Below, in pieces: positions 7,573 to 19,876 of a DNA stretch of 22,750 nucleotides. The translations under genes were made by a program, and so were the position numbers. The stretch lies in the IMG/VR virus record IMGVR_UViG_3300025684_000074, positions 1 to 22,750 of that record, one strand, 5' to 3'. The notes below the pieces were generated by a model. It was not told the DNA's origin, searched no databases, and saw only the letters and a program-made list of their open reading frames with translations. The stretch is from a virus. How positions within the stretch are numbered: the first letter of the stretch is position 1; every line of letters begins with the position of its first letter.

Positions 7573-7842
7573 ATGTTAGAAGTAAAGAAATTTTATGGAA
7601 CATGGTGCGGGCCTTGTAAAGCATTAGCACCAACTATTGAAAAGTTGAAGCAAGCACATACTGATGTTAGATTCGAAGATATCGATGTTGATGTTGATTT
7701 TGAAGCTGCATCTAAATACGGAGTTCGTAGTATTCCATTGGTAGTTATTGAAAAGGATGGACAAGAGGTACAGCGTTTTGCTGGACTTCAATCAGAAATG
7801 GCATATAATAACGCAATCAATGAATTGAAAAAGGTAGGATAA
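7573..7842 (+). CDS. Thioredoxin-like protein
   Basis: 89-residue thioredoxin fold with the classical WCGPCK active site (residues 11-16), the cis-proline region RSIPLVVI (about 52-59), and a C-terminal helix. It is shorter than E. coli thioredoxin (108 aa), lacking the first beta strand and helix, like compact phage thioredoxins/glutaredoxins. Placed directly after nrdA, it most likely re-reduces the C588/C591 pair of the reductase. The stop overlaps the next ATG by one base. Confidence 0.92.
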   Translation: MLEVKKFYGTWCGPCKALAPTIEKLKQAHTDVRFEDIDVDVDFEAASKYGVRSIPLVVIEKDGQEVQRFAGLQSEMAYNNAINELKKVG

Positions 7843-8045
7843 TGCCAATACTAAGAGGTCAGTCTCATCCGTCATCAAAGTTGACAGATGAGCAGGTTAT
7901 ACAAATAAGAAAGTTATGGAAAATGGGACACCGAAATGTTCGAGTAATGGCTCGAAACAATAAGTGTTCCTCAGCCAATATTCTTAGGATTGTACGAAAT
8001 GAAACTTGGACACATCTAAATGAATTTTGGTCTGGTAGTTTATGA
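7842..8045 (+). CDS. Small basic HTH DNA-binding protein
   Basis: 67-residue basic protein. Residues 13-56 (from SKLTDEQV through NETW) resemble the small helix-turn-helix module often found attached to phage HNH and GIY-YIG homing endonucleases, here with no nuclease domain. It starts by a one-base overlap with thioredoxin and ends in an ATGA overlap with the first Mom-like gene, so it is co-translated with both. Possible roles are a regulator of the Mom cassette or a remnant of a homing endonuclease; the intact overlaps argue for a functional gene. The specific function is unknown. Confidence 0.7.
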   Translation: MPILRGQSHPSSKLTDEQVIQIRKLWKMGHRNVRVMARNNKCSSANILRIVRNETWTHLNEFWSGSL

Positions 8046-8803
8046 AAGAAAATAAGATATACTGCGATACATCAAAGTTATCCATTAGACCTATAACTAA
8101 ATCGGTAGCGAAAGATATCATTGTTAACAACCATTATAGTGGATTGTGGACAAAGGTATCTTACGCTATCGGTTTATTCACTTCAGAGGTTGAAGAACAT
8201 CCTTTCTTCCAAAATGTAGAAGAAAAACTAATTGGAGTTGCCTGTTATGGAGACCCAATTGGTAGAAGTGCTGGACAATCCATCACTCCCTTATTAGAAA
8301 GAACCGAAGTATTGGAACTAACCCGATTATTTGTATTCGATGGGTATGGTTCAAACATTGAGAGTTGGTTCTTATCTCAAACTTTCGATTGGTTAAGAGA
8401 AAACGCTTCCCACATCAAAGGACTTATATCGTATTCAGACCCCAAAGTTGGACATAACGGAACAATTTACCAAGCAACTAATTGGTTGTATCAAGGTAAC
8501 AAATTGAGATTCAACGATAGTTGGGATTTCAGATGGGAAGAAGATGGTGAATGGCATCACGGAAGAACTTCCTATGTGAAGTTTGGGACAAATGACCCGA
8601 AAGAAATCCAAAAGATGATATCAACTCCCTTTTGGATAAAGAAATCACCCAGAAAACACCGATATGTGTACATCTTATCAAAGGGTGGTGAACGAAGAAA
8701 ACTAATTAAAACATTAAAGCACCCAACACTCCCTTATCCAAAGGAAAGTGAAGAATTTGTAGATGAAATCCACAAATTAGAACCAATCAATTTGGATAAT
8801 TAA
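8042..8803 (+). CDS. Mom-like DNA adenine modification protein, copy 1
   Basis: 253 aa, similar in pattern to phage Mu Mom, a GNAT-fold enzyme that converts adenine in DNA to an N6-modified form protecting phage DNA from restriction. Shared features: NHYS (30-33), LIGVACYGDP (63-72), LELTRLFV (91-98), GYGSNIES (101-108), and an SYSDPKVGH segment (130-138) followed by GTIYQATNW (140-148). Family-specific C-terminal motifs KHRYVYIL (205-212) and LKHPTLPYPK (225-234) are shared with copy 2. It overlaps the HTH gene by 4 nt. A recognisable promoter (TTTG at 8791) begins inside its 3' end. Family call from motif memory; the chemistry in this phage is not known. Confidence 0.8.
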   Translation: MKENKIYCDTSKLSIRPITKSVAKDIIVNNHYSGLWTKVSYAIGLFTSEVEEHPFFQNVEEKLIGVACYGDPIGRSAGQSITPLLERTEVLELTRLFVFDGYGSNIESWFLSQTFDWLRENASHIKGLISYSDPKVGHNGTIYQATNWLYQGNKLRFNDSWDFRWEEDGEWHHGRTSYVKFGTNDPKEIQKMISTPFWIKKSPRKHRYVYILSKGGERRKLIKTLKHPTLPYPKESEEFVDEIHKLEPINLDN

Positions 8804-8999: not shown

Positions 9000-9803
9000 A
9001 TGAAAGAAGAAGGAAAACACTATGTAGATGCAAATAGGGTAAGCGTAGCTCCTATTGCAAAATCTATCGCTAAAGATATGATTATCAAAAAGCACTACAC
9101 TCATGCTTGGACAGCATGTAGATATGCTTTGGGTATCTATCATCAAATGGATGAAAACGATGTATTTGGTAATGATAAGCAATTAGTTGGAGTAGCAGTA
9201 TATGGTTTCCCAGTTGGGGCTAAGGCATCCACCTCAGTTTGTGAAGGATTAACCAAAGATAACATCTTAGAACTTACCCGTTTGTATGTAGATGATGGAT
9301 ATGGTTCAAACATCGAAAGTTGTGCAATAGGTAAAACTTTCCAATGGTTAAAAGAAAACGATACCAACATCAAAGTTTTACTTTCTTACGCTAACAACGG
9401 ACAGGGGCATGTTGGTGGAATCTATAAGGCAACCAATTGGATTTATCAAGGTTTGAACACGGATATTGCGCTCATGCCAAATTGGGGTATCTCTCTATCT
9501 AATGACCCATACGATTGGATTCATAGTAGGACAGTTTACAATAATTGGGGTAGTGGTAACTTAGAACATCTACGAAGAGAAATTGGAAAGCAGGGTTATA
9601 CTGAATTTTGGAGAAGAGAAGAACCACCAAAACATAGATACATTCAGATTCTTGCTCAGAACAAAAAGGAAAAGAAAGATTTGATGAAACGATTAAAGCA
9701 CCCAATACTTCCTTATCCAAAAGAACTAAACGATTACAATACTGAAATCGTACACCATACAACATACGCACCGGAAGAATCAAACGAAATAAATTTTTGG
9801 TAA
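9000..9803 (+). CDS. Mom-like DNA adenine modification protein, copy 2
   Basis: 267 aa, a diverged paralog of the gene at 8042. Conserved points: KHYT (31-34, for NHYS in copy 1), LVGVAVYGFPVG (62-73), ELTRLYV (91-97), GYGSNIES (100-107), SYANNGQGH (129-137) with IYKATNW (141-147), HSRTVYNNWG (175-184), KHRYIQIL (211-218) and LKHPILPYPK (232-241). Similarity runs the full length, pointing to duplication followed by substantial divergence. The start ATG directly follows the TAG of the 52-aa gene. Two copies may modify different sequence contexts or form a heteromer. The tail after 241 is unique to this copy. Confidence 0.8.
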   Translation: MKEEGKHYVDANRVSVAPIAKSIAKDMIIKKHYTHAWTACRYALGIYHQMDENDVFGNDKQLVGVAVYGFPVGAKASTSVCEGLTKDNILELTRLYVDDGYGSNIESCAIGKTFQWLKENDTNIKVLLSYANNGQGHVGGIYKATNWIYQGLNTDIALMPNWGISLSNDPYDWIHSRTVYNNWGSGNLEHLRREIGKQGYTEFWRREEPPKHRYIQILAQNKKEKKDLMKRLKHPILPYPKELNDYNTEIVHHTTYAPEESNEINFW

Positions 9804-11739: not shown

Positions 11740-12858
11740 ATGAGAGTATTAGTAATACCAAATTACACAAACTTTGGGATGGCAAAGGACATCAATAGGG
11801 ATTCGTTTCTATTGGTGTTCAAATCCTTTTTAGATAACACACAAATTGGTAAAGAGTGGGAGTGGATTCTACCTTACCCTGATTTGAATAATCATCCGGG
11901 TATCATCAATCAGTTTGAATATCCGAATGTTACTTTACTTAAAATGGAAGGGTTAGATTGCTTTCCACCTAAAATGAGGGTAGATTATCCTCATAAAGTA
12001 TTTGAACGAATTATAGACAAATACAATGGTGAATTTAATCTAATCTGGTCACATTTGCCTGAGTGGACTAACGAATTCAAAATTACCCGTATCTACAACA
12101 AAACCCAACCAATCATTGGATATTGCCATTGGTGGGAAATTAAAGATAATGGTGCTAGAGATGATAACTCCTTTTGGAGAAATATCAAAGGTATGTTACA
12201 AATGAAAGTTTGTGGTGTGAATTCACAATGGGTAAAAGATTTGGTTATCAAAAGAGCAAGTGAAACATTCCAACCACATATCATTGAGAAGTTGGAAGAG
12301 ATTATCCAACCTTGGTATTTAGGCTGTGATTCAGCAACACCAACCGGTGAATACGATGATAAAACAATCGTATTTAACCATAGAGAAGGTGTGTACACTG
12401 GTTCAGATTGGTTCTTTGAAACTATGGATGAGTTGTGGAAAGAAAGACAAGATTTCAAAGTTTACACTTCACTAAAGGATATGGGTAAACCATATACCAA
12501 ATACATTGGACATGCTGATAGAGATGTATATTTGAATCAGTTATCCAAAGCACATTTTGGTGTAGGAACTTTTCAAGGTTATTCAGCATGGAGTATGAGT
12601 GCAACTGATGGATTGAGTAGAGGTGTTCCATATCTACTACCAAATGATTTTTGTTACCCTGAAATGGTTGGTAAAGATTACCCACTACTTTATAATGGTA
12701 AGAAAGAGTTCAAAGAAATGGTTGTAAAATTATTGGATGGTGATATCCAAAGGCCCGATGTAACTCACATTGCAGAATCATTACTATGGGAACATCAACT
12801 TAAAAGTTGGAAGATAGAAGAGAACTTTATTAATAACGCAAGAAAATCCTTTGATTAA
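11740..12858 (+). CDS. GT-B-fold glycosyltransferase
   Basis: 372 aa. The N-terminus starts directly with a Rossmann strand (RVLVIPNYTNFG). The C-terminal half has the layout of GT4-like donor-binding domains: VFNHREG (211-217), VYTSL (241-245), LSKAHFGVGTF (268-278), then ATDGLSRGVPYLLP (288-301), which corresponds to the acid-x-small residues-G-P segment of the family; D290 takes the place of a Glu. It would transfer a sugar from a nucleotide-sugar donor. The acceptor cannot be read: modified DNA bases, virion proteins or host glycans are all possible. No DNA base hydroxymethylase is visible in the window. Cytoplasmic; no membrane segment. Confidence 0.75.
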   Translation: MRVLVIPNYTNFGMAKDINRDSFLLVFKSFLDNTQIGKEWEWILPYPDLNNHPGIINQFEYPNVTLLKMEGLDCFPPKMRVDYPHKVFERIIDKYNGEFNLIWSHLPEWTNEFKITRIYNKTQPIIGYCHWWEIKDNGARDDNSFWRNIKGMLQMKVCGVNSQWVKDLVIKRASETFQPHIIEKLEEIIQPWYLGCDSATPTGEYDDKTIVFNHREGVYTGSDWFFETMDELWKERQDFKVYTSLKDMGKPYTKYIGHADRDVYLNQLSKAHFGVGTFQGYSAWSMSATDGLSRGVPYLLPNDFCYPEMVGKDYPLLYNGKKEFKEMVVKLLDGDIQRPDVTHIAESLLWEHQLKSWKIEENFINNARKSFD

Positions 12859-12897: not shown

Positions 12898-15417
12898 ATG
12901 GCGTATCAAAACTGCTACTATCAGCGAGAGAAGAATTTAGTTCATATTTGGGATGACCGTCAAGGTTATCGTTCATTTCCCTACACCCGTTATGCTTATG
13001 AAAAAGCTACTAATGGTGAATACACAACTCTTTATGGTGATAAAGTAACTAAGATTTACAAATACACAAAAGATGATGTAAATTTGTTTGAATCCGATGT
13101 ACCTGAAACCACACGAGTTTTGGTTGATACCTATACGGATTCAGATTTGCCATCCGAAGGACACGTGATTCTTACATACGATATTGAGTGTGAGATGGAG
13201 AGTGGATTACCAAATCCAGAAGAAGCTAAGAATGAATTAACATCCATCGGTTTGCATGATTCCGCTACCAATCAATATTGGGTATTGGTAATGGATAAGA
13301 AAGGTGAGATGATTGAAAAGAAAACCGATAAAGCAATCGTAATCCCATTCAAACATGAGGAGGATATGTTGATGAAATATTTGGAGTTGTATGAATACAT
13401 CAACCCAACTATTGTAACGGGATGGAACATCGATTACTTCGATACTCCTATGTTATACAATCGTATCAAACGATTGTTGGGAGAACGCCATGCAAATCGT
13501 TTATCACCAATTGGTGAGTGTTTCTGGTCACCATATCGTAAACGATACTTTATGGCTGGTGTTTCTTATTTGGACTACCTTTCACTTTATAAGAACTTTA
13601 CTTATTCGGAATTAGATTCATATCGATTAGATTCGATTGCTCAAAGAGAGTTGGGTAAGGGTAAGATTGAATACGATGGAAATTTGGATATCCTCTTCAG
13701 AGATGATATTGAAAAGTTCATTGAGTATAACTTGGTGGATGTGGAGTTGGTAGTTGAGTTTGACCAAAAACTTCAGTTCATTGATACCGCTAGAGGTATC
13801 TGTCACGCTGGGCATGTTCCTTATGAAGATTTCGTTTACTCTTCAAAGTATTTGGAGGGGGCTATGTTAACTTATCTAAAACGAAAAGGTATCGTAGCAC
13901 CTAACAAACCTGCGGATAGACAAGAACGAATGCAGGCACTTAGGGATAACAATGAAGAGAAGTTCATTGGGGCATATGTAAAAGCACCTATTGTTGGAAA
14001 GTATGAATGGATTTATGATTTGGATTTAACATCTCTATATCCATCCATCATTATGAGTATCAACATCTCACCTGAAACCAAAGTTGGAAAGATTGAAGAT
14101 TGGGATGCTCAGAAATTTATCAAAGGTGAGGTAGCTGAATATAGAGTTGGTGATAATTATATAACCAAAGATAACTTACAAAAGTTATTGGAGAAAAGTA
14201 AATACTCAATCGCTTCCAATGGTGTAATGTATAGAACCGATAAGCCAGGTTGTATTCCTGATATTTTGGACTTGTGGTTCTCACAAAGGGTTGAATTTAG
14301 AAAGTTGGAAAAGAAGTATGGAGATGAGGGAGATAAAGAAAAATACGCATTCTATAAGAAACGTCAGTTGGTTCAGAAGATTCTACTTAACTCTCTTTAT
14401 GGTGTGCTTGGTCTTCCTGCCTTTAGGTTCTATGATGTTGATAATGCTACCGCTGTTACCACAACGGGACAGACGGTTATTAAGAGCACAGCTGATATGG
14501 CTAACATCAAATACAATAAGGAGCTTAATACTCCTAATGCTGACTCTAACATATACATTGATACTGATTCGGTATTTTTCTCCGCAGTTCCCCTTTTAGA
14601 CCATCGTAAACCTAATTGGAAAAACGAAGAGCAAGATGTAATTGCTGGTTATGTGAATGAGATTGCTGGTGAAATGCAAGATTACCTAAATAATTTCTAT
14701 GATATCTTAGGTAAGAAAGTATTCAACATTGATAAACACCGATTTGAGATTAAGAAGGAATTCGTATCCAAAGCTGGTATTTGGATTGCTAAGAAACGAT
14801 ACGCTCAATGGATTATTTCAGATAATGGTGTACCTGTTGATAAGTTGGATGTAAAAGGATTGGATGTTGTTCGTTCTTCATACCCAGCCGCATTCCGTAA
14901 GTTTATGGGTGAGGTTTTGATTGAAATCCTTAGAGGTGATACGGAAGAGCAACTTACCAATAAAGTATATGATTTCAAAAAAGATTTGGTAAATATGGAT
15001 GTGGTAAAGATTGCTAAAGCTGGGGCAGTGAAAGAACTATCCAAATACCTACCAAAGAAAAAGGAACAAACTGCAATGTTCCAATTCAAAAGTGGAACTC
15101 CGGCTCACGTAAAAGCAGCAATTGCATACAACCAACTACTAACCCACTTTGGGTTGGATAAACAATATGAACCACTAAAAGATGGTGATAAGATTAAATG
15201 GGTGTATTTGAAACAAAATCCATATGGTTTGGATGGTGTAGCTATGAATGGTTACAATGACCCAAAGGAAATTATGGATTTGGTAACTACCTACATTGAT
15301 TATGATAAAATCTTTGAAAGAGAACTCCTAAAGAAATTGGAAGATTTCTACGGAGCATTAAATTGGGGTGAAGTTTTATCCTCAACCAAAACGGCTGAAA
15401 AGTTTTTCGCATTTTAA
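12898..15417 (+). CDS. DNA polymerase, family B (T4 gp43-like)
   Basis: Replicative polymerase with 3'-5' proofreading. Exonuclease motifs: DIE (95-97), NIDYFD (177-182) and Y277 with D281 (YNLVD). Polymerase motifs: A, DLTSLYPSII (376-385); B, K494 with NSLYG (498-502); C, YIDTDS (553-558). All catalytic acids are present: D95, E97, D179 and D281 for the exonuclease, D376 and D556 with D558 for polymerisation. The C-terminal end is aromatic (KFFAF), which could serve as a clamp-binding tail as in T4 gp43. At 839 aa it is a little shorter than T4 gp43 (898 aa). It has its own strong promoter and is followed by the clamp gene, with no intron, intein or split seen. Confidence 0.97.
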   Translation: MAYQNCYYQREKNLVHIWDDRQGYRSFPYTRYAYEKATNGEYTTLYGDKVTKIYKYTKDDVNLFESDVPETTRVLVDTYTDSDLPSEGHVILTYDIECEMESGLPNPEEAKNELTSIGLHDSATNQYWVLVMDKKGEMIEKKTDKAIVIPFKHEEDMLMKYLELYEYINPTIVTGWNIDYFDTPMLYNRIKRLLGERHANRLSPIGECFWSPYRKRYFMAGVSYLDYLSLYKNFTYSELDSYRLDSIAQRELGKGKIEYDGNLDILFRDDIEKFIEYNLVDVELVVEFDQKLQFIDTARGICHAGHVPYEDFVYSSKYLEGAMLTYLKRKGIVAPNKPADRQERMQALRDNNEEKFIGAYVKAPIVGKYEWIYDLDLTSLYPSIIMSINISPETKVGKIEDWDAQKFIKGEVAEYRVGDNYITKDNLQKLLEKSKYSIASNGVMYRTDKPGCIPDILDLWFSQRVEFRKLEKKYGDEGDKEKYAFYKKRQLVQKILLNSLYGVLGLPAFRFYDVDNATAVTTTGQTVIKSTADMANIKYNKELNTPNADSNIYIDTDSVFFSAVPLLDHRKPNWKNEEQDVIAGYVNEIAGEMQDYLNNFYDILGKKVFNIDKHRFEIKKEFVSKAGIWIAKKRYAQWIISDNGVPVDKLDVKGLDVVRSSYPAAFRKFMGEVLIEILRGDTEEQLTNKVYDFKKDLVNMDVVKIAKAGAVKELSKYLPKKKEQTAMFQFKSGTPAHVKAAIAYNQLLTHFGLDKQYEPLKDGDKIKWVYLKQNPYGLDGVAMNGYNDPKEIMDLVTTYIDYDKIFERELLKKLEDFYGALNWGEVLSSTKTAEKFFAF

Positions 15418-15449
15418 TTTGGTAATGTGAGAAATAATTCGTATATTTG
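15418..15449 (+). promoter_or_regulatory. Bacteroidota-type promoter for sliding clamp
   Basis: TTTG (15418-15421, right after the polymerase stop), 20-nt spacer beginning GTAATG and ending ATTCG, TATATTTG (15442-15449). Predicted start near 15454 gives a 30-nt A-rich leader. It would also drive the downstream DUF4338 and clamp-loader genes, which have no clear promoter of their own. Confidence 0.78.
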
Positions 15450-15483: not shown

Positions 15484-16179
15484 ATGGAAAAAGTAAAATT
15501 CGATGGTTTTATTAACCGCTACAACCTTGGTGGAGAGGTTGAATCGGTAATGATTAAATCTGATGATACAAACCTTTCGGTTCGTATGATTTCAGATGAC
15601 AAAACTCTTTTGGGTGATGTTACAGTAACTGAATCTGAATTCCCAAATGGTGAGTTTGGTATCTACACTACATCTCAGTTGAAAGGGTTGTTGAGTGTAT
15701 TGGATAATGGTATCTCAGTAGAGGAAGTAACCGGTGCACTTAAATTCTCAGATAAGGGAACTAAGATGCAGTATATGTTGGCAGCTCCTTCAGTTATTCC
15801 AGCAGTACCTGATTTGAAGGCACTTCCTCCTTTCAATGTGGATATTACATTGGATAATGAGTTTGTAAACAAATTCATCAAATCTAAGGGTGCTTTGGCT
15901 GATGCTGATACATTCACATTCACTTGTAAAGATGGTAAGGGAGAAATCATCTTAGGATATTCTTCAATCAACTCTAACCGCATTTCAATCACTGTTGATT
16001 GTAAGTGTGATGGTGATGTTCAACCAATCGCTTTCTCAGCAAAGTATTTGAAAGCAATTTTGATGGCTAACAAAGGTTCATCAACATCATCATTGAAAAT
16101 CTCTTCACAGGGTTTGGCACATCTAAACTTTGTGGATGGTGAATACACATCACGATACTATTTAGTAGAAATAAAGTAG
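15484..16179 (+). CDS. DNA polymerase sliding clamp (T4 gp45-like)
   Basis: 231 aa, nearly the length of T4 gp45 (228 aa). It forms a trimeric ring that tethers the polymerase to DNA. The reading rests on overall beta-rich pattern, size and context: two similar halves, the first with LSVRMISDDKTL and a FGIYTTSQLKGLLSVLD helix (about 58-74), the second with a cluster of Thr/Lys strands (FTFTCKDGKGEIILGYS) and FSAKYLKAIL (183-192), a typical clamp segment before the last strands. In T4 the gp45 clamp also activates late transcription. It is followed by DUF4338, clamp-loader large, zinc ribbon and small subunit genes, a 45-44-62 order as in T4 with two insertions. Confidence 0.88.
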   Translation: MEKVKFDGFINRYNLGGEVESVMIKSDDTNLSVRMISDDKTLLGDVTVTESEFPNGEFGIYTTSQLKGLLSVLDNGISVEEVTGALKFSDKGTKMQYMLAAPSVIPAVPDLKALPPFNVDITLDNEFVNKFIKSKGALADADTFTFTCKDGKGEIILGYSSINSNRISITVDCKCDGDVQPIAFSAKYLKAILMANKGSSTSSLKISSQGLAHLNFVDGEYTSRYYLVEIK

Positions 16180-16215: not shown

Positions 16216-17436
16216 ATGAGTTTTTGGGATGTAGAAGAAACAAAGCCAGAATTCGTATTTGAAGAAGCTAAACAAAAGCTGATTGAGAATATGGATTACC
16301 TTATGACAATGAGTGTAGAAGAGCAAACCCTCTACAAAAAGTGGGTAGAATTGCAAGAAGATTCTATGCTCAGAGATAAATCCCAAATTGCCTCTTTGTA
16401 CGATATCCAATGGAAACCAACTGATATCAATAATAAGGAACTAACCATCAAAGAAATTGAAGAGTTGGAACCTTATGTTGAAATCGTTGATGATGATGCT
16501 AGAGAATCTACAAAGTGGACATATCTTCGTAAGATGATTCACACAATGAGTTGGACAGCTAACCCTGGCCGAAATGTGAAAATCTTTATCAAAGATAGAA
16601 AGAGTGGTAAACTATTAGGTTTAGTATCACTCGCTTCAGATGTTACCGCAATGGCTGTTAGAGATAATTACATCGGATGGACTAAAGAAGATAAGTTCCA
16701 AAAGGGGAAGTTGAACTACACAACTATCGCTTCCACTATTGTTTGTACCCAACCATTAGGTTACAATTTCTTAGGTGGTAAGTTGACAGCAATGATGACT
16801 ACTGTGCCTGAAGTACGAGAGTATTGGAAAAAGAAGTATGGGCAAACATTGATAGCTGTGGGAACAACTTCCCTATATGGAATTCATTCTCAGTATAATG
16901 GTATTCCTCACTTCAAAACTTTGGGAGAATCCGCTGGTAAGATTGCAATCAAACCTGATGATGAGTTCTATGACCCTTGGCACCAATGGTTGAAAGAGAA
17001 CCGAGCTGAGTGGTACGAAACCGCAATCACAAATGAACGAATTCGAAATGGAGCGAATATGGGAACTGGTGAAGGTGCTAGTGGACCTGTAAGTGGTATC
17101 AAACAAAAGATTTTGGGACAAATTTTCAAAGAGTGTGGTATCAAAGCATCCGATTATCACCACGGATTCAAAAGAGGTGTTTATTTCGCTCAAATGTATG
17201 AGAACGGAAATGAATTCCTTTGTAGTAAAATTGAAGAATCAGAATTGGTGATGAAGAAGAAGTTCGCAGATGGTGTAGATTACATTAACAATTGGTGGAA
17301 AAGACAAGCAATCAAACGATACACCACCTTACACAATGAGGGTAGATTGAAACCTGAAGATTTATTCTACATTGATGGTATTGGAATGAGTTGGGAAGAA
17401 TTTAAGCAAAAACGATTGTCTGAAGTAGGACGATAA
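16216..17436 (+). CDS. DUF4338 / DruA-like protein
   Basis: 406 aa. The middle (about 119-241) resembles DUF4338, the domain of DruA from the Druantia anti-phage system: NVKIFIKDRKSGKLLG (120-135), DNYIGWT (150-156), LNYTTIASTIVCTQPLG (166-182), YWKKKYGQTLIAVGTTSLYG (203-222), SQYNGIPHFKTLGES (225-239). The N-terminal 115 residues are helical; the C-terminal 160 contain a basic, aromatic stretch (YHHGFKRGVYFAQMY, 314-328) and a WKRQAIKRY segment. It lies between clamp and clamp-loader genes, 36 nt after the clamp stop and 10 nt before the loader, with no promoter of its own, so it is expressed with the replisome. The biochemical function of DUF4338 is not something I can state; a role on replicating DNA is inferred from position. 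Confidence 0.65.
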   Translation: MSFWDVEETKPEFVFEEAKQKLIENMDYLMTMSVEEQTLYKKWVELQEDSMLRDKSQIASLYDIQWKPTDINNKELTIKEIEELEPYVEIVDDDARESTKWTYLRKMIHTMSWTANPGRNVKIFIKDRKSGKLLGLVSLASDVTAMAVRDNYIGWTKEDKFQKGKLNYTTIASTIVCTQPLGYNFLGGKLTAMMTTVPEVREYWKKKYGQTLIAVGTTSLYGIHSQYNGIPHFKTLGESAGKIAIKPDDEFYDPWHQWLKENRAEWYETAITNERIRNGANMGTGEGASGPVSGIKQKILGQIFKECGIKASDYHHGFKRGVYFAQMYENGNEFLCSKIEESELVMKKKFADGVDYINNWWKRQAIKRYTTLHNEGRLKPEDLFYIDGIGMSWEEFKQKRLSEVGR

Positions 17437-17446
17437 AAAATAAAAT

Positions 17447-18394
17447 ATGGCATTTTTCGAAGAAACAAAAAACGAACAAGTAGATAATTCACTTTGGGTT
17501 GAGAAGTATCGCCCAACTGTATTGGAAAACTATGTAGGTAACGAACACCTTAAATCAAAGGTTGAAGGTTATTTAGAAACTGGTGATATTCCTCACCTAC
17601 TTCTTTATGGTAGAGCTGGTACGGGTAAAACCACATTGGCTAAGTTGATTGTAAAATCATTGGATTGTGATTATATGGTAATCAACGCATCGGATGAGAA
17701 CAATGTGGATACAGTCCGTAATAAAGTGAAAAACTTTGCATCTTCAATGGGATTCAAAAAGTATAAGATTATTATCTTAGATGAGTTTGATTATATGTCT
17801 CAGAATGCACAAGCGATTCTTCGTAACTTAATGGAAACTTTCTCACAACACTGTCGATTCATTTTGACTTGTAACTATGTGGAGAAAGTAATTGAACCAA
17901 TCCAATCTCGTTGCCAAACTTTCCAAATTGTACCTCCAACTAAAAAGGATGTTGCAGTTCAAATCTCAAAGATTTTGGGAAGTGAAAGTATTAAGTATGA
18001 ACCAAAAGATTTAGTTCCTATTATTGATGCTGGTTATCCTGATATTCGTAAGATTATCAATACTTGCCAAATGAACTCAATCAAAGGTGAGTTGAAAGTA
18101 GATACTCAGAATCTTTTGGAAAACGATTACAAAATGAAAGTTTTGGATATCCTCAAATCAAATGATGATAAACGAAACAAATATATGAATATGAGACAAA
18201 CAATTATTGATAGTAGGGTTACTGACTTTACTGAATTGTTTACTCTCTTATATGATAAAGTTGATGAGTTCGCTCCAGCAAATACCGCAAATGTGATTAT
18301 CGCATTATCGGAAGGGCAGACAAGACATTTCCATTCTATTGATAAGGAAATTCCAATGGCAGCAACTCTAATAGAAATCTTAAATTTAATCTAA
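17447..18394 (+). CDS. Clamp loader large subunit, AAA+ ATPase (T4 gp44-like)
   Basis: 315 aa (T4 gp44: 319 aa). AAA+ ATPase that opens and loads the sliding clamp at primer-template junctions. Motifs: WVEKYRP (17-23), the N-terminal RFC-type signature; Walker A GRAGTGKT (55-62); Walker B IILDEFD (109-115); sensor 1 TCNY (141-144); arginine-finger SRC motif (154-156). The C-terminal third is the helical collar region. It begins 10 nt after the DUF4338 gene and is followed, after one base, by the zinc-ribbon gene. Confidence 0.96.
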   Translation: MAFFEETKNEQVDNSLWVEKYRPTVLENYVGNEHLKSKVEGYLETGDIPHLLLYGRAGTGKTTLAKLIVKSLDCDYMVINASDENNVDTVRNKVKNFASSMGFKKYKIIILDEFDYMSQNAQAILRNLMETFSQHCRFILTCNYVEKVIEPIQSRCQTFQIVPPTKKDVAVQISKILGSESIKYEPKDLVPIIDAGYPDIRKIINTCQMNSIKGELKVDTQNLLENDYKMKVLDILKSNDDKRNKYMNMRQTIIDSRVTDFTELFTLLYDKVDEFAPANTANVIIALSEGQTRHFHSIDKEIPMAATLIEILNLI

Positions 18395-18395
18395 A

Positions 18396-18713
18396 ATGGC
18401 AAAAATAGTAGGAATGAATGGTGGTGGTAAACCACAAAAACCATCCAACGAATCAGCACAAATGGGACAACCTCAAATTGATTTGGGTAAATCTAAACCA
18501 TTGGTATGTGAACATTGTGGTTACGATACTTTCGTAACTGGTGGTAAGTTCCGTAGAATCTCAAAACTCCTAACAGGTACAGCGCAGGATGTTATCGTTC
18601 CAATCGATGTATTCCTTTGTGGTAATTGTGGAGAGATTTCACAAGAACTTATGGCACCTGAGTTGAAAGCATTAGAACAATTAGATAAACAACGAGCAGA
18701 AGAAAAAGAATAA
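18396..18713 (+). CDS. Small zinc-ribbon protein
   Basis: 105 aa with two CxxC knuckles, C38/C41 (CEHCGY) and C75/C78 (CGNCGE), separated by 33 residues, forming a plausible zinc ribbon. The first 35 residues are Gly/Pro/Gln/Ser-rich and probably unstructured; the C-terminal 20 are a charged helix rich in Glu and Lys. The gene starts one base after the clamp-loader large-subunit stop and overlaps the small-subunit ATG by one base, so it is made together with both. It may be a replisome or clamp-linked transcription accessory factor; T4 has no gene at this place. The function is not assigned. Confidence 0.75.
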   Translation: MAKIVGMNGGGKPQKPSNESAQMGQPQIDLGKSKPLVCEHCGYDTFVTGGKFRRISKLLTGTAQDVIVPIDVFLCGNCGEISQELMAPELKALEQLDKQRAEEKE

Positions 18714-19162
18714 TGGCTGCTACCCTCTTCGACCATATCACACAAATAACCAATGTTCAAAACGCAAAGTATTGGGATACATTGGATGAATCGGATAAGA
18801 AAACATTTTCCAACTATATGGTTCTTCGTTTCTTATCTATGAAATATGAATGGGTAGAAACCATTGCAACAGTCCAACCATATCTGCAAGAGGTTCCACC
18901 TAAAGCAATGTATTTGGCTCTAATTGATTTACTTCCAAAGGGTAGACACTTTATGAAGTATATGAAGCCAAAAACTGCTGATAAGTATGAAAGTTGGTTA
19001 GTGGAGTTGGTAGCAAAGCATTATATGGTATCTAAATCAGAAGCTGAGGATTATCTAAAGATTCTATACCTAACTAAGGATGGTAGGGAACGAATCATTC
19101 AGTTATCAGAAGATTACGGAACTGACCCAAAGGTAATTAAAAAACTAAAATTAAAGGTATAA
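18713..19162 (+). CDS. Clamp loader small subunit (T4 gp62-like)
   Basis: 149 aa, all-helical. There is no ATPase motif, as expected for gp62, which joins four gp44 subunits in the loader. Points of similarity with T4-type gp62: an NYMVLRFLSM segment (34-43), MYLALIDLLPKGRHFMKYMK (66-85), close to the PRGKR-x-x-KW region of T4 gp62, and a C-terminal part with VELVAKHYMVSKSEAEDYLKIL resembling the KLLAKRYQVNTNDAINYKSIL-like end of that family. It is slightly shorter than T4 gp62 (187 aa). One-base overlap with the zinc-ribbon gene; a terminator follows 18 nt after the stop, closing the operon. Confidence 0.78.
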   Translation: MAATLFDHITQITNVQNAKYWDTLDESDKKTFSNYMVLRFLSMKYEWVETIATVQPYLQEVPPKAMYLALIDLLPKGRHFMKYMKPKTADKYESWLVELVAKHYMVSKSEAEDYLKILYLTKDGRERIIQLSEDYGTDPKVIKKLKLKV

Positions 19163-19844: not shown

Positions 19845-19876
19845 TTTGGTAAATCCAATCTTTTTTCGTATATTTG
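19845..19876 (+). promoter_or_regulatory. Bacteroidota-type promoter for Cas4-like nuclease
   Basis: TTTG (19845-19848), 20-nt spacer beginning GTAAATCC and ending TTTTTTCG, TATATTTG (19869-19876). Predicted start near 19881, about 14 nt before the ATG at 19895. The spacer shares its first eight bases with that of the 9796 promoter. Confidence 0.8.

Follow-up and report, generated by a model that had tools for sequence, protein, structure and literature searches.

The DNA considered here, referred to as the window, is the 22,750-nt virus record IMGVR_UViG_3300025684_000074, and the gene in question encodes a protein of the DruA/DUF4338 family; such relatives of DruA, a protein of anti-phage defence, are built into the DNA-replication gene block of many marine phages. 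The gene order in the window is clamp, DruA, gp44, a putative zinc-ribbon open reading frame (ORF) and gp62 (Table 1), with gaps of 36 bp between clamp and DruA and of 10 bp between DruA and gp44, in agreement with an initial annotation that had placed a DruA-like gene between gp45-like and gp44-like genes. The protein is a true member of the DruA/DUF4338 family: its match to Pfam PF14236 (DruA; E=4.4e-21) reaches 75.8 bits for a cut-off of 27 and is thus significant, as the DUF4338 assignment in that annotation had anticipated, and it also matches PADLOC DruA1 (2.4e-17) and phrog_19197 (4.5e-30).

The window was scanned for TTTG-N17-23-TAnnTTTG, a promoter consensus of the Bacteroidota type. 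It occurs 8 times, compared with 1.8 expected, and this consensus suggests a Bacteroidota host for the phage. As one occurrence precedes the clamp gene, with no further one on the + strand before 19845-19876, the genes from clamp to gp62 are read as one transcription unit. No occurrence of this consensus precedes DruA in the window, and the initial proposal that DruA has no promoter of its own therefore holds for promoters of the Bacteroidota type.

Table 1. Features of the window discussed in the text
Feature	Position	Strand	Basis
DruA/DUF4338 protein, 406 residues, predicted GNAT-fold DNA-modifying enzyme	16216..17436	+	ATG start; family profiles, AlphaFold model
DruA N-terminal tail MSFWDVEE, candidate sliding-clamp-binding motif	16216..16239	+	predicted disordered, aromatic pair conserved
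DruA C-terminal EVGR	17422..17433	+	alignment; terminal Arg invariant (VGR here, IIR in cyanophage forms)
Bacteroidota-type promoter consensus preceding clamp	15418..15449	+	consensus scan
gp45-like sliding clamp	15484..16179	+	phrog_223 E=1.6e-14
gp44 clamp loader, N-terminus MAFFEE	17447..18394	+	phrog_168 3.9e-79
Small putative zinc-ribbon protein	18396..18713	+	zinc-ribbon matches all sub-threshold
gp62 clamp loader	18713..19162	+	PF16790 7.8e-7
Family B DNA polymerase (PolB), C-terminus KFFAF	12898..15417	+	PF00136 4.5e-39
Putative glycosyltransferase, without family match	11740..12858	+	by inference; homologues adjoin DruA in other phages
Mom protein 2 (Mom2), C-terminus NFW, candidate clamp motif	9000..9803	+	PF25680 2.1e-45
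Mom protein 1 (Mom1), without terminal aromatic pair	8042..8803	+	PF25680 7.3e-44

The phage protein and the DruA of bacterial Druantia systems belong to the same family across the core (hhalign probability 99.9, E 6.5e-32, 264 columns; hhalign E-values, here and below, are those of single comparisons and are best judged against control profiles), and the motifs GRx..VRDxxIGW, YN.LLGGKL and TTxS..G..S.YN are common to the window protein and to the DruA of Druantia type I (PF14236, PADLOC DruA1). They differ in that the window gene sits in a phage replisome operon and one phage clade carries an N-terminal aromatic tail; in an unrooted tree, phage and bacterial DruA proteins fall into separate clans, with a support of 0.86 for the bacterial one. 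None of DruB, DruC, DruD and DruE was found among the scanned proteins of this 22.75-kb fragment, some small ORFs of which lay outside the scan, and the window thus holds no combination of DruA with DruB-E such as makes up a Druantia type I system. Sequence searches of the PDB with DruA gave no match. DruA-like proteins of the same family have already been published for six Synechococcus phages on the basis of fold similarity found with Phold, and S-PRM1, which is named there, is among the cultured-phage matches described below; the accessible part of that publication reports the similarity to DruA, but not replisome linkage, slot swap, terminal motif or a relation to Mom (PMC12774648). A DUF4338 domain has also been described in fusion with DndF, where, unlike here, the partner is a bacterial restriction protein, self proteins were proposed as the target, and there is no clamp context (PMC10853773). 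Among giant viruses, the proteins A0A3G4ZXG3 (Faunusvirus), A0A5K0UAJ3 (Yasminevirus) and A0A3G4ZRA1 (Dasosvirus) are strong structural matches to the phage DruA model in BFVD (Foldseek E 3.5e-20 to 1.1e-9).

A replisome address with interchangeable occupants

Relatives of DruA were found by tblastn in 31 records of cultured phages, and 572 of the first 600 pattern matches in IMG/VR encode one. They form three phage clades, denoted W (window-like), C (cyanophage) and P (Pelagibacter-like). The commonest W arrangement among the fetched IMG/VR loci is clamp-DruA-gp44, seen in 94 loci with close neighbours, and the commonest C arrangement is gp44-DruA-gp62, near-identical contigs being included in these counts. 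Cultured Synechococcus phages with DruA include S-CAM9, S-SM2 and S-SSM7, the last of which has a Mom gene as well. In cultured Synechococcus phages, DruA likewise lies between gp44 and gp62, and in the Pelagibacter phages Mosig and HTVC008M it follows gp46/gp47, several kb ahead of the clamp. In other W loci, DruA adjoins PolB, Mom2 or a glycosyltransferase-like gene, as in the orders Mom1-Mom2-DruA-PolB (L051) and Mom1-Mom2-DruA-glycosyltransferase-PolB (L037). Spacing is tight, with medians of 5 bp between clamp and DruA and of 11 bp between DruA and gp44, and in cyanophages DruA overlaps gp62 by 4 bp. This neighbourhood survey speaks against clamp adjacency as a chance feature of a single genome, an explanation that was therefore discarded: the same placement was seen in about 100 IMG/VR loci, although many of these are near-identical, and in cyanophages and Pelagibacter phages in culture the gene occupies other replisome positions.

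On some phage contigs there is a second DruA-like gene, placed either in tandem with the first or elsewhere among the replisome genes (L055 5986-8221; L277 2352-4705; L084 5911-7149 and 12183-13148). At another locus, a ParB-N-like ORF of 399 residues lies between Mom2 and the glycosyltransferase-like gene that adjoins DruA (L035 1190-2389), possibly as a further modification or restriction part. In the window itself, Mom1 is preceded by a 67-residue ORF (7842-8045) whose homologue in G157 (L385 4666-4866) matches HNH endonuclease families (phrog_20467, 8.3e-6).

The site between clamp and gp44 was also surveyed starting from the clamp rather than from DruA, using 80 close clamp homologues that are 82-100% identical. 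DruA is present in the locus for 69 of them and missing for the other 11, three of which end at a contig edge, so that the slot is readable in 8. In these 8 loci, PolB, clamp and clamp loader are still about 75-91% identical to those of the window, and the slot is occupied either by a 496-residue glycosyltransferase-like ORF or by an HD-type ORF together with a 411-residue TAGT. The former (L338 5707-7197) ends in DNKFF, is weakly similar to the window ORF at 11740 and has no family match. The latter (L350 5698-7610, with the HD-type ORF) matches PF20691 (4.6e-32) and phrog_842, beta-glucosyl-HMC-alpha-glucosyltransferase (9.4e-31), and TAGT is an established family of DNA glycosyltransferases (PMC13216743). 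Thus, of the alternative occupants, the only one that can be assigned to a family is an enzyme type that modifies DNA. TAGT (PF20691) and the T4 alpha-glucosyltransferase (PF11440) are, like the enzyme proposed here, DNA modifiers of T4-like phages, and TAGT uses the same slot in close relatives; they differ from DruA in being glycosyltransferases rather than GNATs, and no homology to DruA was seen. In the cultured, diverged Microcystis phage Mel-JY01, whose PolB is 50% identical, the slot is empty, and this phage is absent from the tblastn DruA matches in cultured phages. As eight loci carry glycosyltransferase-type genes instead and the slot of Mel-JY01 is empty, the occupant changes while the address stays constant. 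The suggestion in the initial annotation that DruA is not a transient cargo is accordingly right as regards the address, which is stable across phage groups, but not as regards the gene, which can be swapped or missing.

Fold, relation to Mom and the terminal peptide

The fold of phage DruA is almost certainly that of a GNAT, as judged from predicted models. The AlphaFold model of the window protein has a predicted local distance difference test (pLDDT) score of 90.3; Foldseek against the PDB gave weak matches, mostly to acetyltransferases, with E no better than 6.7e-3. On re-ranking with VIA-align, phage Mu Mom (8bv8) came first (Z 9.9, root-mean-square deviation 3.6, 168/202 residues), other chains reaching Z 8.9, and the matches listed, mostly GNATs, span Z 8.2-9.9. 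A cyanophage DruA model (pLDDT 81) again retrieved GNATs (Z 8.5-9.3), and its alignment with Mom (Z 8.9) was the longest of those listed, at 182 residues. A DUF4338 domain has independently been called a GNAT (PMC10853773).

The relation between DruA and Mom is distant and runs through DUF4338 profiles and fold. Mom modifies adenine with an acyl-type group. Profiles of transposon-type DUF4338, built from proteins of bacterial genomes, connect to Mom (hhalign probability 96.7, E 4e-10, 156 columns) on one side and to phage DruA (probability 95.8, E 7e-9) on the other; for unrelated control profiles, the probability did not exceed 2.9 against DUF4338 or 6.6 against phage DruA. Direct profile comparison of bacterial DruA with Mom fails (probability 5.6), and a Pfam search with the window protein gave no match to the Mom family, PF25680, so that it is not a Mom in the strict sense. 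The adenine modifier Mom shares with DruA the GNAT fold and, via transposon-type DUF4338, the motifs HHY, N..S and GTxYxAANW. It differs from DruA in lacking the additional DUF4338 segment (RDxxIGW) and the long helices at the C-terminus, and the true Mom genes of the window are separate. One cyanophage record carries the annotation 'methylcarbamoylase mom'. In the DruA alignment, a polar core is conserved, consisting of N184, GGKL 187-190, TTSLYG 217-222 and Y227.

The first eight residues of the window protein, MSFWDVEE, are predicted to be disordered (pLDDT<50). An aromatic pair, [FYW][FW], lies within the first 12 residues in 52 of the 53 W-clade DruA representatives obtained at 90% clustering, where random 12-mers of the same proteins would give 3.6/53, and in 13/14 at 65% clustering. 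At the C-terminus of PolB in W-clade loci, such a pair is found in all 32 distinct tails (KFFAF, KFFSF), and at that of Mom2 in 26/26 (NFW, KFW); for Mom1 the count is 0/21. This distribution suggests that, of the two neighbouring Mom enzymes, Mom2 may be clamp-tethered. The N-terminus of gp44 has a pair in 36 of 58 distinct sequences, and most other families in the same loci have no terminal aromatic pair. The PolB tails of cyanophages are SLESFF or SLEDFF (e.g., SLEDFFG, SLEDFFS), and one DruA starts with MSLEDFFD. In T4, gp43, gp55 and gp33 each attach to gp45 through a hydrophobic-acidic tail, and these tails can stand in for one another (PMC2988020). Given the conserved pair, the resemblance to PolB tails and this precedent, MSFWD is read as a candidate clamp-binding motif, and the search for a clamp-binding peptide called for by the initial proposal of a link to the clamp has thus yielded a candidate. 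The T4 alpha-glucosyltransferase co-purifies with gp45, as stated in a paper citing Sommer 2004 (PMC13216743), and provides a precedent for a DNA modifier on the clamp. A 239-residue ORF that ends in EFFSY (L378 7919-8638, the same as G157 46919-47638) was suspected to be a gp55-like late sigma factor, and profiles did not confirm it.

Proposed function and competing explanations

With a probability of roughly 0.55, we consider DruA to be a clamp-tethered, Mom-like DNA-modifying acyltransferase that protects progeny DNA. This reading draws on what was computed: the family, the GNAT fold, the DUF4338-Mom profile link, the recurrent replisome linkage, the TAGT slot swap and the conserved terminal motif. 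From sequence and predicted structure, we infer that DruA would be a GNAT-fold, Mom-related enzyme moving an acyl-type group onto bases of phage DNA. In the W clade, its disordered N-terminal peptide (MSFWD...) would bind the sliding clamp, and the clamp would carry DruA along new DNA, so that modification would take place behind the replication fork and the progeny DNA would be protected from host restriction. Its gene would be expressed in one unit with those of the clamp and clamp loader, from a slot also used by alternative DNA-modification enzymes. Among the three functions put forward in the initial annotation, a DNA-modifying enzyme working with the clamp on replicating phage DNA is the best supported, given the Mom-like fold, the neighbouring Mom and glycosyltransferase genes, the slot swap and the terminal peptide.

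Several observations weigh against this reading. Mom leads the structural ranking by just 1 Z unit for the window model and is tied with others for the cyanophage model, and direct profile comparison of phage DruA with Mom fails (hhalign probability 0.4). The canonical coenzyme A (CoA) loop of GNATs (Q/RxxGxG/A) is not clearly kept, as phage DruA has QPLGYN (QPxGxN..GGKL) and bacterial DruA lacks the Q, so that the protein could have a changed catalytic activity or none. Clades C and P lack the N-terminal aromatic pair, and tethering by this peptide is therefore not a universal mechanism. Over one entire phage contig of 252 kb, terminal aromatic pairs number 18, with roughly 15 expected by chance; because there is no overall excess, the mere presence of a pair was dropped as evidence, and it is conservation that carries the argument. 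Lastly, the predominance of alpha-glucosylation in T4 is not set by gp45 binding (PMC13216743).

The usual substrates of GNATs are small amines or proteins. With a fold as generic as this, DruA might be an acyltransferase recruited through the clamp to modify a protein, such as the clamp, the polymerase, RNA polymerase or a host factor, much as phiKMV Rac, among other phage GNATs, acetylates the RNA polymerase of the host (PMC7824862). This is unlikely, as Mom, a DNA modifier, is both the solved structure ranked first and the family to which the profiles lead beyond DruA itself, and as replacement by TAGT and the flanking Mom and glycosyltransferase genes point to DNA. The blurred CoA-loop signature, along with the fact that clamp loader, gp46/47 or PolB genes adjoin DruA in every clade, would also suit a non-catalytic GNAT-like factor of the replisome or of recombination, for instance one that binds DNA strands or flaps. 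We regard this as a little less likely again, since the polar core resembles an active site, and since optional presence and exchange for glycosyltransferases speak against a core replication part.

Homology to Druantia DruA being genuine, the phage protein might act as a decoy or dominant-negative DruA, and countering Druantia was indeed among the functions first envisaged. This is very improbable: among the genomes sampled, a DruA1-type gene is present in only 2 of 296 from Bacteroidota, in one case on a contig resembling a phage, and in 5 of 197 from Pelagibacterales, which makes Druantia a poor target, the family is common and tied to the replisome in no fewer than three T4-like groups, and no other Druantia gene was seen among the scanned window proteins. 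Host Druantia was gauged by DruA1 as the PADLOC DruE model is unspecific, with matches in 12 of 14 control genomes. That DruA is a passenger carried along by the replication genes with no functional clamp link, as a swappable and sometimes empty slot might indicate, is just as improbable in view of the recurrence of the placement in separate clades, the tight spacing, and the conserved N-terminal peptide resembling PolB tails.

In the open-access literature searched, no report was found of replisome linkage in three T4-like groups, of the TAGT swap, of the terminal motif or of the Mom bridge, and its accessible text states no biochemical function for DruA. The phage data thus offer a testable function, that of a Mom-like DNA modifier. 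A broader proposal, to which we give somewhat less than even odds, is that DruA/DUF4338 proteins form a previously unrecognised class of Mom-related base-modifying acyltransferases, clamp-tethered in phages alongside a clamp-tethered Mom, and that the DruA of Druantia would hence be a DNA-modifying component. The swappable replisome slot is a place to seek new DNA-modifying enzymes. If the proposed function is correct, the DruA family, with hundreds of marine-phage loci, would add a route of DNA hypermodification, modification enzymes would be recruited to the clamp via short terminal peptides, and a component of Druantia may mark DNA.
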